Part shown: positions 15,956-20,930 of the stretch, in pieces | Position numbering within the stretch: the first letter of the stretch is position 1 | How the letters are laid out: the number at the start of each line of letters is the position of its first letter | DNA from: a virus | Virus record (IMG/VR): IMGVR_UViG_3300023174_000737 | Span: 1 to 20,930 of that record | DNA: 20,930 nucleotides | Strand: one strand, 5' to 3' | Program-made: the position numbers and the translations under genes | The notes under the pieces: model-generated | Told to the model about the DNA's origin: nothing | Database searches by the model: none | What the model saw: the letters and a program-made list of their open reading frames with translations, nothing else

Positions 15956-16699
15956 CACAGATTTCCTTCTGAGAAAGGATCTTTTTCGGTAAAGTCGATG
16001 AAATCATCTGATCCTAGTGGGAAGTTATCAGTTCCATACTGAATCGTATCGTTTTCGGATGCTGGATTGATAGTTTCGGGTTTGTAACCCTCTACAACCA
16101 GATAGTTACTATTTTCGTCGGTCAGATTGACACCCTCTTCATCCATAATAGCGTAATCAAGAATGTTGATGGAGTAGTTTTTCTGAATGGAGTCGATCTC
16201 ATCAACTCCAGTGTTGAACTGTTCGTTACTGTATTCGAAGAGCTCGCAAGTCAGTTCCCAAGTCTGCAAAGCACCGAACTGATAGAACATCTCAAACTTA
16301 TTGACGAACTTGATCTGGAAACATTTGCGATTCAGTGGGAAGTAAATCAGATCGCCTTCGTTCGGTCTTACCTGATCAGTTACAATAGCAACTTCCTGGT
16401 TGAACGTTCTCTGGGCAATGCTGAATACAACCTGATCACGAATCTGCAAGCCGAACTTAGACATGAAGTTACCATCGCCAGTAAACCCATCAACCGATTT
16501 GATGTAGAGCTCTACCATGATAGCATGATTGTATTGTGATGAATCGTCTTCGCCGATGAGCTTATCGTAGTTTGTAATAACACGGGGAATGTATAGCATA
16601 TCTTCTCCGTAAATACGGATAGCTTCGATGATCAGATCCTCGTAAAGGCTCTGTTCGCCTGTAGATGAGAAGTTATTGAAAGTAAAAGTTAGTCGCCAT
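15955..16699 (-). CDS. 14: Neck protein gp14, with an apparent +1 frameshift at codon 7
   Basis: gp14 is a neck/head-completion protein linking head and tail. The uninterrupted frame starts only at an internal ATG (16599, 214 aa) and carries family segments such as MYIKSVDGF-type LYIKSVDGFTGDGNFMSKFG, LQIRDQVVF, PNEGDLIYFPLNRKCF and GALQTWELTCELFEYS. By hand translation the same frame continues upstream of 16599 as FNNFSSTGEQSLYEDLII then EAIRIYGED, which is what gp14 proteins carry at their N-terminus, but it has no start codon. A well-placed ATG at 16699 with a strong Shine-Dalgarno reads MATNFYFQ then stop at 16673. Skipping one T in the TTT at 16679-16681 joins the two as MATNFYFNNFSST and gives 247 aa (T4: 256). 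Either a sequence error, a real mutation or a +1 frameshift. Confidence 0.88.
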
Positions 16700-17318
16700 T
16701 GACAATTCCCTCCTTTTTCTTAGCCCAAGCGGCTTTAGATCTTATAGATTGCAATTCTCTATAGTTTTCGGGTCTTCTTGACGCGCTAATTTTACCTGCT
16801 TTAGAAGCAATTTCTTTAGTGTTGGGATTAACAAGTTTAGATTCGCTCATTTTCTTTTTTGATATATCCGTATGTTTACTACCTATTCTGGAAGCAATAA
16901 CGGCTGCAGCATGTTCAGGAGAATTTTTCGAAGCTTTTCTACCTGCTCGTAATGCCGCAATATGTTCTGGCGTTCTTTTTCTTTTTTTTCCTGCAATACT
17001 CATATTGATTTTATGTTCTTCTGATATGGAATCTTTGGTCCAACCGTCAAAATAAAAACCGTCATTGTTATGCCTGTTGTAAAATCCCTCGTTTAGTTTA
17101 GCGTCAACAGATTGAAGAATTTTAGCTTCCAATTTTCTTATGTCCGCATGTTTTCCTCTAGCAACGATCTGTCTCGAGAAATCTTGAGGTCTGCGATTAT
17201 ACTCTTCCATCATGTATTTACTAGAACAAACGTAACCGTCATCCGTCGAACCTTTATGAGATCCGACATACAACTTGTTATTAACTTTATCGGTCCAACA
17301 GTACACGAAAGCTTCCAT
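16689..17318 (-). CDS. GIY-YIG homing-type endonuclease with NUMOD-like repeats
   Basis: This is probably a free-standing homing endonuclease of the Seg/I-TevI type, a selfish gene that spreads by cutting DNA lacking it. The 209-residue product has an N-terminal GIY-YIG nuclease domain: VY (5-6) and LYVGS (16-20) frame the motif, Arg48-Arg52 region and Glu64 in KLEAKIL are candidate catalytic residues, and FYNRHNN (79-85) closes it. The C-terminal half carries repeated short helix/DNA-minor-groove modules of NUMOD3 type (SEEHKINMSIAGKKRKR, TPEHIAALRAGRKAS, SPEHAAAVIASRIG) and a Lys-rich tail. It is wedged between gp13 (TAATG overlap) and gp14 (11-bp overlap). By eye it looks more AT-rich than the flanking structural genes. 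It is not required for virion assembly. Confidence 0.9.
   Translation of the reverse strand: MEAFVYCWTDKVNNKLYVGSHKGSTDDGYVCSSKYMMEEYNRRPQDFSRQIVARGKHADIRKLEAKILQSVDAKLNEGFYNRHNNDGFYFDGWTKDSISEEHKINMSIAGKKRKRTPEHIAALRAGRKASKNSPEHAAAVIASRIGSKHTDISKKKMSESKLVNPNTKEIASKAGKISASRRPENYRELQSIRSKAAWAKKKEGIVNGD
16708..16715 (-). promoter_or_regulatory. Strong Shine-Dalgarno for gp14 inside the endonuclease gene
   Basis: AAGGAGGG on the minus strand ends 8 nt before the ATG at 16699. It is the strongest ribosome site in the area and lies within codons for the last residues of the endonuclease. It argues that the true gp14 start is 16699, not the internal ATG at 16599. Confidence 0.85.
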
Positions 17319-18124
17319 TAGGCTGCTCCAACAAAACCGAGAACGGTTTGTAGTAAAGGAACAGAAACGGCAAGACCGAATAAAATTCCGATCATATCTG
17401 TAACCGGGAGTGAATAACTGGTGATCATCTCGCGTTCTAGCTCTCCACGCTCACGTATGGCATCATCGTAGATTTTCTGACCATTGAACTGAATACCACC
17501 AGGAAGCTGCATTCCAATGAACTTAGAAAGATTTGCGCCCCACTGCTGTTTGATCAAGCAAGTAGCATAGCGAAGAAGCCAACGATCTTTCCATACGTCG
17601 GGAAATAATGCCGGATCGACAATCTGATAAGCTTCTACAATGATGTAGTCTCCGGTGTTTACGATGTTCCAGTCCATATCAATGTAAAGGCGATTGATGT
17701 TTCTGTTATAACGAATAGGCTGCTGACCGACGAGCATCTGTTCTAGGAACTGAACGTGAGTCAGCGCCATGTAGTAAGGAACCATTGATACAGAAGTAAG
17801 AGTGTAAAGATCGTTCAGAGCGATCTGATAACGAATGTTGAACAGGTTGTTGGTGTTCAATGCTTGACCGATCGGAAACAGATTGACAGCACCAATGATG
17901 TTCTCGGGCATAGTGATGTATCTGTTTGTCTTGTCAGTATCCGTGATCTGATATTTGTAGAAAGTTCTTTCGGATCCATCGAAGTGATAATCCCAGTAAT
18001 ACTTTAATGCTTCATCAATACGATCATCAACTTGATCATCATCCACATTGATTTCGATTACGGGTTTACCAAGAGTTCTTAGGCAATACTCTTTAAACTG
18101 ATCTTTTGTTGTAGGTGTTGCCAT
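17318..18124 (-). CDS. 13: Neck protein gp13 (head completion)
   Basis: gp13 sits with gp14 in the neck below the portal and is needed for head completion and tail joining. The 268-residue product (T4: 309) has family-typical segments: LGKPVIEINVDDDQVDDRID (18-37), YYWDYHFDGSE (42-52), HVQFLEQM with the following FNR-like RYNRNINRLYIDMDW, WLLRYATCLIKQQWGANLSK (182-201), MQLPGGIQFNGQKIYDDA and SLPVTDMIG (238-246). After that, about 22 hydrophobic residues (LFGLAVSVPLLQTVLGFVGAA) form an unusual tail. ATG at 18124 has AAGGAT 8 nt upstream and a perfect late promoter 31 nt upstream. The stop overlaps the endonuclease ATG (TAATG). Confidence 0.95.
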   Translation of the reverse strand: MATPTTKDQFKEYCLRTLGKPVIEINVDDDQVDDRIDEALKYYWDYHFDGSERTFYKYQITDTDKTNRYITMPENIIGAVNLFPIGQALNTNNLFNIRYQIALNDLYTLTSVSMVPYYMALTHVQFLEQMLVGQQPIRYNRNINRLYIDMDWNIVNTGDYIIVEAYQIVDPALFPDVWKDRWLLRYATCLIKQQWGANLSKFIGMQLPGGIQFNGQKIYDDAIRERGELEREMITSYSLPVTDMIGILFGLAVSVPLLQTVLGFVGAA

Positions 18125-18168: not shown

Positions 18169-18612
18169 TCAGATATCGAACTCATAACGATAAGCAACCG
18201 GTTCAATACCAAGCTTTTTATACATATCAATTGTTGATTGAACTGTTAACATCACATTATCTGTTATACGTTTCACGCCTTGTTCTTTTAATTCTTTGTA
18301 TGCCATTTCGCGCGTTATAACACGTAGACCCCTTTTTCTGTAATCTGGTTTAACATAAGTAAACAATGATTCGTAAAATTCGGGCGTTATAGGATAATAA
18401 ACTCTTATTCCTACTGGAACATCATCAACTTTAATGAAGTAAAAAACTCCTTTTAACCTATTGATAGGAGGAGTCTCGCGAGCAAGAGAACCTAGCGCAA
18501 TCAATTCCACCCAAGCGGCATCCCACATTTCTGTAAAAATTTTATTTTTTTCAAAATTTTGTTCATTAACGGTTCTTAGATCTAATTTTTCAAGCGTAAT
18601 ATTATCTGTCAT
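18169..18612 (-). CDS. GNAT-family acetyltransferase-like protein
   Basis: This 147-residue protein has the layout of a GCN5-related N-acetyltransferase. Two beta strands with VFYFIKVDDVPVGIRVYYP (56-74) come first. The acetyl-CoA-binding motif A then appears as YVKPDYRKRGLRVITREMA (86-104), with RKRGLR standing for the R/Q-x-x-G-x-G/A signature; the last position is Arg, not Gly or Ala. Motif B-like STIDMYKKLGIEPV (126-139) follows. The substrate cannot be inferred from sequence. The frame also opens at ATG 18624, but GGAGG lies 5 nt before the ATG at 18612, and the 18624 start would lie on this site, so I choose 18612. It follows the radical SAM gene by only 12 nt and so may act in the same modification step. 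Confidence 0.72.
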   Translation of the reverse strand: MTDNITLEKLDLRTVNEQNFEKNKIFTEMWDAAWVELIALGSLARETPPINRLKGVFYFIKVDDVPVGIRVYYPITPEFYESLFTYVKPDYRKRGLRVITREMAYKELKEQGVKRITDNVMLTVQSTIDMYKKLGIEPVAYRYEFDI

Positions 18613-18624
18613 TTGAACCTCCAT

Positions 18625-20037
18625 TTACTTCTTTGCGACTGTTGGGATTGATTCTTCTCTAATTTGCGGTACTGATTGCTTAATGTTTCTAATCTGACCC
18701 CATAAATCTTGTCTATCTTCTGGTAGTTGATAATCATCATCAATAGCAGTAATCTTGTAAGGGAGTGCTCCTGTAGCGGTTTCTAATGCAATAGCAAAGA
18801 ATGGAAGATGATCCGAGTAAGCTGCATCACAAGACAATTTAAAATATTCGCCTTCAAGAAACATACAAGAACCTTTACATACCTGTAATAGAGGACACCT
18901 GGCGCAATCATCTCTGAACTTCCAGTGCGTTGATGTATTCAACTTAACATTAGCTAATTGATTAACATGCCCAATTCTATGAGACTTGCCATTTGGAGCT
19001 TTCGAAACAGCCGTGACATTCTGACAAGTGAGCACATTGCCCTGAAGATCAACAGCCATGGTATCTTCTTGATCCATTCCACACTTTTGACCTAGAGTAT
19101 CGGCTGATCTATAGTTACCCCAACTATTAAGCCATTCTTGAACTCTTTGTTTGACAATGATGAATCGATTAATATCATTATTACGAATCGCCATCAAAGT
19201 GGTCATTCTATGACCTACGTGTTCTTCATCACCTTGTGGCACATTTTTCTTACCACCCTCATCATATACATCGATGAATCCGCCTTCACCGATCATGAAA
19301 TTGCTCTGTTGGTTTAAATTAAACAGATCCTCGAAAAATGTCTGAATACTAGCCCGATCCATGTTTTCGCGATGCACCATTGAATTGATGCTAATTCTAC
19401 CTTCAGGAAGGAACCGATTGAACAGCTTAAATAGAATCTTTCTTTGGACCGGATCTTCGAACGGATCTGGACCTCTTACGTTCTGACCTGGACCATCGTG
19501 AGATACAGCCATACTAAAACCCATGTCATACAGCCAGTCGATGATCTCTTCTGTGATCAAAGAGCCGTTAGTAATGACCGAGAATCTTGTCTTTGGATAT
19601 TTTTCTCGAAGACGCTCAGCCAACGGCTTCATGACTTTCCAGTAAACGAATGGTTCACCACCCCAAAATTCAATCTTCTCGGGCGGAATTTTAAGCCAAG
19701 TGTCCATGTTATCGATGAACTTATCCATCAACTTCGTATTGGAGTGATCGATGTTTGGAACGAATCTCTGCGAACAATATTCGCAAGAGTAGTTACAAGA
19801 CAGACCCATCTGAATCTTCAGAAGCTTAATGTCTGATTTACTGCCTGGGGTGTCGACCGAGATAGCCTTTACGATATTATTCGACTTTTGCGACCAGACT
19901 GGCTTAATATTAACCAGTTTATTTTTGTTATCAAAAATCTCGGAAGTCATGTTATCATAGATGTAACTTACCTGATCAATTCTTTCAATACCGGTATCGT
20001 TGTAAACTGGCTTCGTGCAGTTAAGTAAAAACCTCAT
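18625..20037 (-). CDS. Radical SAM/SPASM enzyme (peptide- or protein-modifying)
   Basis: This 470-residue enzyme is predicted to cleave S-adenosylmethionine with a [4Fe-4S] cluster and modify a peptide or protein. The radical SAM core has CNYSCEYC (Cys81, 85, 88; CxxxCxxC), WGGEPF (GGEP at 126-129) and ITNGSL (155-160). The C-terminal SPASM domain fits CX9-15GX4C-CX2CX5CX3C-C exactly: Cys319, Gly333, Cys338, Cys378, Cys381, Cys387, Cys391, Cys403, enough for two auxiliary clusters. This layout is shared with anaerobic sulfatase maturases, PqqE and sactipeptide/ranthipeptide maturases. Residues 1-70 are an N-terminal extension of unknown type. ATG at 20037 with AAAAGG 8 nt upstream, 21 nt after the Asn-Cys-rich gene, its likely substrate by adjacency. 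No sulfatase is present. Confidence 0.93.
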   Translation of the reverse strand: MRFLLNCTKPVYNDTGIERIDQVSYIYDNMTSEIFDNKNKLVNIKPVWSQKSNNIVKAISVDTPGSKSDIKLLKIQMGLSCNYSCEYCSQRFVPNIDHSNTKLMDKFIDNMDTWLKIPPEKIEFWGGEPFVYWKVMKPLAERLREKYPKTRFSVITNGSLITEEIIDWLYDMGFSMAVSHDGPGQNVRGPDPFEDPVQRKILFKLFNRFLPEGRISINSMVHRENMDRASIQTFFEDLFNLNQQSNFMIGEGGFIDVYDEGGKKNVPQGDEEHVGHRMTTLMAIRNNDINRFIIVKQRVQEWLNSWGNYRSADTLGQKCGMDQEDTMAVDLQGNVLTCQNVTAVSKAPNGKSHRIGHVNQLANVKLNTSTHWKFRDDCARCPLLQVCKGSCMFLEGEYFKLSCDAAYSDHLPFFAIALETATGALPYKITAIDDDYQLPEDRQDLWGQIRNIKQSVPQIREESIPTVAKK

Positions 20038-20058
20038 TATATAATCCTTTTCATTAAA

Positions 20059-20463
20059 TTATTTACCACATTGACAATCACAATTACAATTACAATTGTT
20101 TTGAACACATTGTGAAGCATTGCAATTATAGGGACCACAATTTCCATCATTACAATTATTCTGTAACGCATAACCACCGCAATTGATACAATTAACATTT
20201 CCTGCATAAACACAATTTTGACAATTTTGTGGGTAATCGTAGCAATTGCAGTTGAAAGTACAATTGCCGTTGTTACAGTTGCCTTCGTTGGTCTTGTTGA
20301 TATAAGCTTTACCGTAATAGTTACTCATGGCATAAGATTGTTGACCAGGTCTGGTGTTATTATAAACATAAGCCATATCGATGATTGTACCACTGGCACC
20401 ACCGCCATTGATTTCAACGTGAATATCATTTAAGCTTAAAGGACCACTGCCCGGTAACGTCAT
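20059..20463 (-). CDS. Asn-Cys-rich small virion-type protein, candidate substrate of the radical SAM enzyme
   Basis: This is a 134-residue protein in two parts. Residues 1-58 (LPGSGPLSLNDIHVEI and later SNYYGKAY) resemble a short module I recall from phage tail and baseplate proteins with an LPxSGPISLxDI start. Residues 60-134 hold 17 Cys in about 70 positions (63, 68, 72, 74, 81, 84, 92, 95, 104, 109, 114, 119, 124, 126, 128, 130, 132), 14 of them directly preceded by Asn. No known metallothionein or disulfide fold is recognised. ATG at 20463 is 1 nt after the fibre stop, and the radical SAM gene follows 21 nt downstream. The arrangement suggests a structural protein with a modified or cross-linked Cys-rich domain. 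A metal-binding or simply low-complexity spike tip are alternatives. Confidence 0.8.
   Translation of the reverse strand: MTLPGSGPLSLNDIHVEINGGGASGTIIDMAYVYNNTRPGQQSYAMSNYYGKAYINKTNEGNCNNGNCTFNCNCYDYPQNCQNCVYAGNVNCINCGGYALQNNCNDGNCGPYNCNASQCVQNNCNCNCDCQCGK
20074..20097. repeat. Tandem ACAATY hexamer repeat
   Basis: Four head-to-tail copies, ACAATC then ACAATT three times. On the minus coding strand this is the Asn-Cys codon pair (AAT TGT) near the end of the Asn-Cys-rich protein, a structure prone to expansion and contraction in steps of two residues. Confidence 0.85.
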
Positions 20464-20464
20464 G

Positions 20465-20930
20465 TTAAATTCTCTTTTCTAGTTCTTCAACTTTAGCGGA
20501 AAGCTCTTTGATGGCTTCAATTAACAACGGCACAATCTTTTCATACTGAACTGTTTTATAGTTTTCACCTGATTTAGAGACATATGTTGTACCCTCATCT
20601 ATATATTCTCTGTCAAATGGAGCCATCTGCACTGCTTCAGGAAGAACTGCTTCGATTTCATGAGCAATAACGCCAACTTGTTTGCTTTGATCTTTATAAC
20701 CAAGACTTGCGGCAATATCATTGCTATTGAATGTCACACCACGAATTGCTTTGACTTTATTCAAAGCATCTGGTATTAGAGTGATATTGGTTTTTAATCT
20801 TATATCAGAGTAATAAGCAATAATATTGCCTGAAGTATGGGTTTCACCGGATGTATATGTTGATTGATTTAAAACAATGTGGGCACCATCCCAATACATA
20901 CCTACGGCGCCATCATTACGCATATAATAT
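20465..20930 (-). CDS. Tail fibre/spike C-terminus with S74 intramolecular chaperone domain (N-terminus cut by window edge)
   Basis: The visible 154 residues are the C-terminal end of a tail fibre or spike protein. They hold a Peptidase_S74-type intramolecular chaperone, which trimerises the fibre and then often cleaves itself off. Features are SDIRLKTNI, with the Ser at the usual autocleavage position, and IPDALNKVKAIRGVTFN. QVGVIAHEIEAVLPEAV, then VQYEKIVPLLIEAIKEL and a final short coiled coil (SAKVEELEKRI) complete the domain. The first ATG seen is at 20923, but the frame stays open to the right edge (Tyr-Tyr just before), so this is an internal Met and the gene extends beyond the window. 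It is followed 1 nt later by the Asn-Cys-rich gene. Confidence 0.93.
   Translation of the reverse strand, partial: YYMRNDGAVGMYWDGAHIVLNQSTYTSGETHTSGNIIAYYSDIRLKTNITLIPDALNKVKAIRGVTFNSNDIAASLGYKDQSKQVGVIAHEIEAVLPEAVQMAPFDREYIDEGTTYVSKSGENYKTVQYEKIVPLLIEAIKELSAKVEELEKRI

Follow-up and report, generated by a model that had tools for sequence, protein, structure and literature searches.

Phage radical SAM/SPASM enzymes paired with Asn-Cys arrays on tail-fibre-type proteins: probable maturases of the array

The DNA analysed in this study, hereafter the window, is a stretch of 20,930 nucleotides from a virus (IMG/VR record IMGVR_UViG_3300023174_000737, positions 1 to 20,930), in which a radical SAM/SPASM enzyme is encoded directly downstream of a small Cys-rich protein. 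Across relatives of the enzyme, a strong substrate pairing was observed with an Asn-Cys array, a run of Cys residues most often preceded by Asn. The enzyme is probably a dedicated maturase of the Asn-Cys array on a protein of tail-fibre or tail-tip type that the same phage encodes. That it acts on the array is very likely, and the presence of the array protein in the virion is nearly as likely; given action on the array, a thioether would be the likely product.

Systems that pair a SPASM enzyme with a Cys-rich target are already known. Use of such an enzyme on phage tail proteins is apparently new within the open literature, since no description of the pairing on phage tails was found in open full-text papers (subscription papers and preprints excluded). 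Hundreds of viral contigs carry the system, as do prophages from several bacterial phyla. If the chemistry is as proposed, covalent radical cross-linking during virion building would count as a novel type of virion modification, the unexplained Asn-Cys tails on fibres would have a reason, and a large set of protein-modifying SPASM enzymes would be indicated. The genes and region concerned are as follows.

18625..20037, minus strand: radical SAM/SPASM enzyme, 470 amino acids (aa), predicted maturase of the Asn-Cys array (PF04055, TIGR04085, phrog_1802)
20059..20463, minus strand: predicted substrate, 134-aa Cys-rich protein (17 Cys; close homologue in locus L004)
20062..20277, minus strand: Asn-Cys-rich region of the 134-aa protein, residues 63-134 (Asn directly before Cys in most pairs)

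Pairing of the enzyme with Asn-Cys arrays

Relatives of the enzyme were taken from viral contigs (the best 80 of at least 560 confirmed stretches) and from bacterial genomes (80 of 126), and dereplication at 90% identity gave 158 enzymes. Bacterial carriers included Limnohabitans, other Burkholderiales, Rhodobacterales, Magnetospirillum, and metagenome-assembled genomes labelled Verrucomicrobia or Bacteroidetes. An array was scored when a same-strand open frame no more than 6 kb from the enzyme contained three or more consecutive x-Cys pairs, of which two or more were Asn-Cys or Asp-Cys. Open frames were scanned for this purpose, gene calling having hidden the Asn-Cys (NC) genes under antisense open reading frames at 79 of 113 loci.

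The preliminary description of this DNA had named beforehand, as the test that could refute it, whether enzyme and Cys-rich gene co-occur, and the outcome was favourable both ways. In the forward test, which counted loci found via the enzyme only and having at least 4.5 kb upstream, an array lay near the enzyme in 66 of 74 dereplicated loci, with 1 of 74 on the opposite strand. Over all loci the figures were 104 of 113, with 3 on the opposite strand and 0 of 113 in a reversed-sequence control. Of the eight forward misses, three carried an array outside the rule: L045 and L091 have variant C-terminal tails (TNCACACEC and TACNCAGGACDCG), and L047 has a same-strand array, NCNCNCNCNC (...NCNCNCNCNCGK), 6.0 kb upstream. 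In L169, the fibre stops early exactly where its relatives bear the array.

The reverse test took as its starting point stretches of viral-contig DNA that encode NCNCNCxC (at least 120, of which 84 are in-frame open frames). Among the matches listed, the enzyme was found downstream of 30 of the 31 such in-frame genes that had 4.5 kb or more of downstream sequence, and of 13 of 13 with long flanks on both sides; the exception, L246, is a Cys-rich frame of spurious appearance. By these counts, a dedicated Cys-rich precursor adjoins the enzyme, as is expected of a maturase of ribosomally synthesized and post-translationally modified peptides (RiPPs). As a shared neighbour, the array was recovered at 123 of 158 loci by sequence clustering and at 139 of 158 by motif, and one contig (L023) carries a pair of enzymes together with a pair of array genes. 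T4-like phages, lambda-like J-tail phages, and prophages from several bacterial phyla all show the pairing. The two-way pairing over so many phage and prophage lineages supports the earlier proposal that a SPASM enzyme acts on Cys/Asn of a tail-type protein.

The residue preceding Cys within the runs was N in 232 cases, A in 71, D in 51 and Q in 9, with few others. Synonymous codons were mixed in 96 of 113 NC runs beside the enzyme, which indicates that selection on the protein, and not a DNA microsatellite, accounts for the repeat. In a DNA-pattern survey of 201 related genomes, the enzyme was present in 3, two of which had the pattern approximately 3 kb away; 21 enzyme-less genomes also matched the DNA pattern, mostly by out-of-frame AACTGC microsatellites in the places inspected. 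Proteins of 56-77 aa with KNCNCNCHC (L248, L249, L250, L254, L287, and similar) were set apart as a different Cys-rich family, as they have a second small Cys cluster and lie on short contigs without the enzyme. Magnetospirillum sp. SS-4 (L230, L232, L237) has five enzyme-family places in one genome, several with their own fibre; the tail in L237 is divergent and ends YCSYCTCACSDCSC.

Array-bearing proteins were of three forms. Type I (44 loci) combines a short domain at the N terminus (MTLPxSGxIS...) with a Cys-rich region in which GNCxNGNC is invariant and further NC pairs occur. Type II (82 loci) is a C-terminal Asn-Cys tail on fibre-like proteins, for example ...RYNCNCNCDCC at the very end. 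Type III (13 of 158 loci by a looser rule, including gp028 of JWF and phage 2-1) has a longer domain, usually Hint, after the array; by the strict rule, a Hint domain began after the array in 7 of 113. In gp028 of the isolated Achromobacter phage JWF (NC_029075), the array region (...RQNCNCDCNCNCSCFPAGTMVLMADG) is accompanied by a Hint domain that passes the PF05203 cut-off (47.5 bits, cut-off 32.1), and the Hint scores of L005 and L007 were under it. The array ended within 10 residues of the C-terminus in 79 of 113; in relatives it forms the last 6-24 residues of the fibre or lies directly before the Hint domain. Sampled carriers, up to 616 aa long, matched tail fibre, collagen-like minor tail, and structural PHROGs. 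The separate Cys-rich protein that had been proposed as substrate thus holds as one form, and C-terminal fibre arrays or pre-Hint arrays are commoner. On the enzyme tree, the three forms require at least 10 changes, with the array retained nearby each time, indicating that the partner was repeatedly swapped and the array kept.

The window protein is of type I: it opens with a short phage-type domain (MTLPGSG...SNYYGKAY), after which comes an Asn/Cys-rich region that ends in NCNCNCDCQCGK. Its 17 Cys all lie between residues 63 and 132, with zero in the first 59 residues. The count of 17 given earlier for the last 70 residues is right as a total, but the last 70 hold 16 and the last 72 hold 17. 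PHROG matches were weak, to two families of unknown function (4.8e-4 and 6.9e-3), and tblastn against the phage collection returned zero matches because the sequence is too divergent and partly of low complexity. The close relative L004 has a second tandem copy of the Cys-rich gene, with 25 Cys. Compared with L004 (98.5% and 94% identical), the Cys-rich gene had a ratio of nonsynonymous to synonymous substitution rates of approximately 0.04 and the enzyme gene one of approximately 0.05, indicating that both are selected coding genes. Type I alignments (A2, A4, A6) showed invariant GNCxNGNC, NC, and NCxNC positions, and Asn preceded 70% of Cys across type I relatives versus 23% Asn overall. In one type I subgroup (L012 7389-8279, L010 5855-6739, and relatives), the Cys-rich region is followed by a domain of approximately 170 aa (KIICxKLxxxGxM...ADQxYGxxL...) that terminates in a hydrophobic segment; in this subgroup the Cys-rich gene lies after the enzyme, not before.

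The enzyme and known maturases

The window enzyme passed the cut-offs of the superfamily model PF04055 (42.5 bits, cut-off 29.5) and the SPASM model TIGR04085 (33.2 bits, cut-off 27). It matched phrog_1802 (1.3e-59), which also holds the JWF and 2-1 enzymes; that family is labelled "radical SAM domain-containing protein", its function is unannotated, and the link to the Asn-Cys array is unrecorded there. The complete CxxxCxxC and SPASM Cys pattern described earlier was confirmed, with the core Cys at C81-x3-C85-x2-C88 and the SPASM Cys at C319-x18-C338 (G333-x4-C338) and C378-x2-C381-x5-C387-x3-C391-x11-C403. These make up exactly ten invariant Cys columns, 3 core and 7 SPASM, in 57 of 57 diverse relatives (alignment A5), every other Cys column being variable. 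No eighth SPASM Cys upstream of C319 was invariant among the 57 aligned relatives; auxiliary cluster I (Aux I) therefore has three invariant ligands, and an open Aux I site is predicted.

The AlphaFold2 model of the enzyme had a mean predicted local distance difference test (pLDDT) score of 94.1. The nearest solved fold was CteB (5why, Z 23.2 over 316 residues), ahead of ChlB (19.9), anSME (19.3), TigE (17.6), and EpeE (13.1). A RiPP recognition element (RRE) had been suggested as a feature to look for in residues 1-70, and the model has no winged helix there; with high pLDDT, these residues form strands at 2-13, 16-28, and 33-35, and the first helix begins from residue 89 on. The substrate may be recognized through some module other than an N-terminal RRE.

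Among NCBIfam models, the top score was that of PapB (NF047865; 66.8 bits, cut-off 340), over 114 core residues, followed by the geopeptide maturase. The SCIFF maturase model TIGR03974 gave 41.3 bits (cut-off 425), and the enzyme was under the cut-off of every named maturase family. A sulfatase-maturase function was rejected, as the anaerobic sulfatase maturase model TIGR03942 gave 39.7 bits (cut-off 349.45) and a sulfatase gene was not seen in the window.

CteB, a SCIFF/ranthipeptide maturase (PDB 5wgg/5why), is the best structural match, sharing the radical SAM core plus SPASM, an open Aux I, and a Cys-rich substrate; its open Aux I site is bound by a substrate Cys (PMC6231123). CteB differs in that its substrate is a peptide of approximately 45 residues, whereas here it would be a phage tail protein of up to 616 aa; the phage enzyme has no RRE-like domain and is approximately 20% identical. 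PapB, which makes a Cys-Asp thioether, is similar in the core only, and its substrates are small peptides with Cys/Asp motifs. Judging from its gene and fold, the phage enzyme may work like a ranthipeptide maturase yet is not filed as one, because the family cut-offs are missed and the RRE is absent.

QhpD is a SPASM enzyme making several Cys-Asp/Glu thioethers in a protein subunit of quinohemoprotein amine dehydrogenase, and is the closest precedent for a protein substrate. Its model (TIGR03906), like that of PapB, matched all 57 enzyme members, although the score was under the cut-off (55 bits, cut-off 453) and its target is an enzyme subunit, not a virion part. With respect to the residues joined, NxxcA has an Asn20-Cys23 Cbeta thioether and freyrasin a Cys-Asp thioether (PMC8326336). 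The NxxcB/NxxcA pair, compared by spacing from what PMC8326336 relates of Caruso 2019, shares an Asn acceptor with Cys at +3, but according to that account it is a single link in a small streptococcal peptide.

Proposed chemistry and alternatives

In the proposed mechanism, the radical SAM cluster would generate a 5'-deoxyadenosyl radical that takes a hydrogen atom from array residues, probably from an Asn or Asp adjacent to Cys, and the Cys sulfur would then bond to that carbon. The open Aux I could hold the substrate Cys as in CteB. The outcome would be a chain of thioether links giving a compact, stable tip or adhesive end. Where a Hint domain follows, cutting at its first Cys would leave the array as the C-terminus, and in many loci additional changes to the tail may come from 2-oxoglutarate/Fe(II) (2OG-Fe(II)) oxygenases or Asp/Asn hydroxylase-like proteins. 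Pure (NC)n puts a Cys at +3 from every Asn, which is the NxxC register of NxxcA; for these arrays the crosslink register is a prediction, and -3 Asn was only mildly enriched in type I. We put at about even the broader proposal of a widespread, as yet undescribed class of virion modification, in which the fibres or tail tips of tailed phages and prophages would be completed by a ladder of thioethers that a radical SAM enzyme makes between Asn/Asp and Cys of an Asn-Cys array. In some cases a self-cutting Hint would expose the array, and 2OG oxygenases would oxidize it further.

Several points weigh against a dedicated, thioether-forming maturase. The case for thioether chemistry is built from genes, motifs, and a fold model, and that for presence in the virion from homology and gene position. 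The model of the 134-aa protein was poor (pLDDT 55.6 overall), with the Cys-rich part predicted to be disordered (pLDDT 33-60). Type I Cys spacing has no single fixed crosslink register (Asn at -3 in 35% versus 23% overall), and no obvious cleaved leader was seen in the array proteins. The lack of a winged-helix RRE and the scores below all named maturase cut-offs count on the same side, as do four enzyme loci (L028, L200, L236, L239) without an array nearby, two of which, L236 and L239, are distant members. In L200 (3425-9185), a distant relative lies beside genes that look ABC-transporter-like and membrane-fusion-like, again with no Asn-Cys tail nearby, and may possibly represent a bacterial counterpart of the phage enzyme with a role in peptide export.

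An unlikely though serious alternative is that the enzyme acts on the array with a product other than a thioether, such as epimerization of alternate residues (giving a beta-helix-like tail), oxidation of Cys or Asn, or another C-H change, the Cys being left free or as metal ligands. The strict X-C-X-C alternation does resemble epimerized peptides such as polytheonamide, the Cys register is not fixed, and genes for 2OG-Fe(II) oxygenases and Asp/Asn hydroxylase-like proteins are common beside the enzyme. However, the enzyme model is far nearer to CteB than to the epimerase EpeE, which is a shorter enzyme, whereas the full seven-Cys SPASM is present here; at the family level, the phage enzyme most resembles thioether makers such as PapB and QhpD.

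It is more doubtful still that the array is an unmodified metal- or Fe-S-binding tail or a disulfide knot, with the enzyme directed at a target elsewhere, for instance a neighbouring protein of approximately 285 aa or a host molecule. CxC-rich stretches can bind metals, and the gene of the 285-aa neighbour is frequent (79 loci), often directly adjoining the enzyme. Yet this gene is missing from about half of the loci and the array is common to most, arrays of differing architecture on unrelated fibre domains retain the enzyme, and NCNCNCxC genes with enough flank almost never occur without it. Shared descent, by which enzyme and Cys-rich gene would travel together in one tail module without a joint function, is very improbable: the clustering of substrate classes on the enzyme tree (29 changes versus 67.5 in shuffles) would follow from common descent too, but on at least 10 occasions the partner gave way to a different architecture that again bore an array, two enzymes accompany two array genes in L023, and the pairing extends over the types of phage and prophage described above.

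Other neighbours and genomic place

Family searches for neck, adaptor, and tail tube genes showed that the window is from a T4-like phage; portal, major head, sheath, and terminase genes were recognized from the evident T4 gene order. The cassette is at the right end of the window, with all genes on the minus strand. The composition first described was confirmed, namely an S74 fibre end, the Cys-rich protein, the SPASM enzyme, and a GNAT protein. Besides the genes given above, the features here are as follows.

20465..20929, minus strand: tail fibre C-terminus with an S74 intramolecular chaperone domain (PF13884, 54.1 bits, cut-off 22; 5' end beyond the window); best PHROG, tail fiber phrog_5668 (1.9e-32)
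18169..18624, minus strand: GNAT acetyltransferase (PF00583, 28.4 bits, cut-off 20.7), whose gene directly precedes the gp13-like neck gene
17318..18124, minus strand: T4 gp13-like head-tail adaptor adjoining the cassette (phrog_211, 2.9e-42)

The gaps were 1 nt between the fibre and Cys-rich genes and 21 nt between the Cys-rich and enzyme genes, as first reported; the 12 nt given for the enzyme/GNAT gap holds if GNAT begins at its second ATG, which is preceded by GGAGG. In T4, gp12 and wac immediately precede gp13, and the cassette therefore sits at the T4 tail-fibre/whisker position.

The S74 fibre and GNAT, first taken as partners of the enzyme, were not conserved. The close relatives L004 and L006 do have a GNAT-like gene after that of the enzyme, but neither GNAT nor S74 is among the recurrent neighbours; GNAT was rejected as a core partner, being absent from the common neighbour clusters, and is probably outside the core system. 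The conserved neighbours were 2OG-Fe(II) oxygenases (62 and 37 loci) and the protein of approximately 285 aa, which by its sequence appears to have an immunoglobulin-like C-terminus and is often encoded between array and enzyme. Tail tip protein J was upstream in 40 loci, and further recurrent neighbours were lysis genes, a tryptophan-halogenase-like protein (13 loci), and an Asp/Asn hydroxylase-like protein (10 loci). Tryptophan halogenase, Asp/Asn hydroxylase-like, and fatty-acid-desaturase genes were seen beside the enzyme in viral contigs L128 (3702-5237), L110 (4700-5491), and L096 (4536-5261).

Two observations concern the adjoining neck genes. At 16600-16700 (minus strand), the gp14-like neck gene was called from an internal start, with ATG at 16599; the segment homologous to the N terminus in relatives such as L006 lies upstream but is interrupted by a stop, suggestive of a frameshift or an error in sequencing close to the 5' end. 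Between the gp13- and gp14-like genes is a homing-endonuclease-like gene (16689-17318, minus strand; phrog_314, 7.1e-21) with weak GIY-YIG and NUMOD3 matches; T4 structural genes are likewise interspersed with homing endonucleases.

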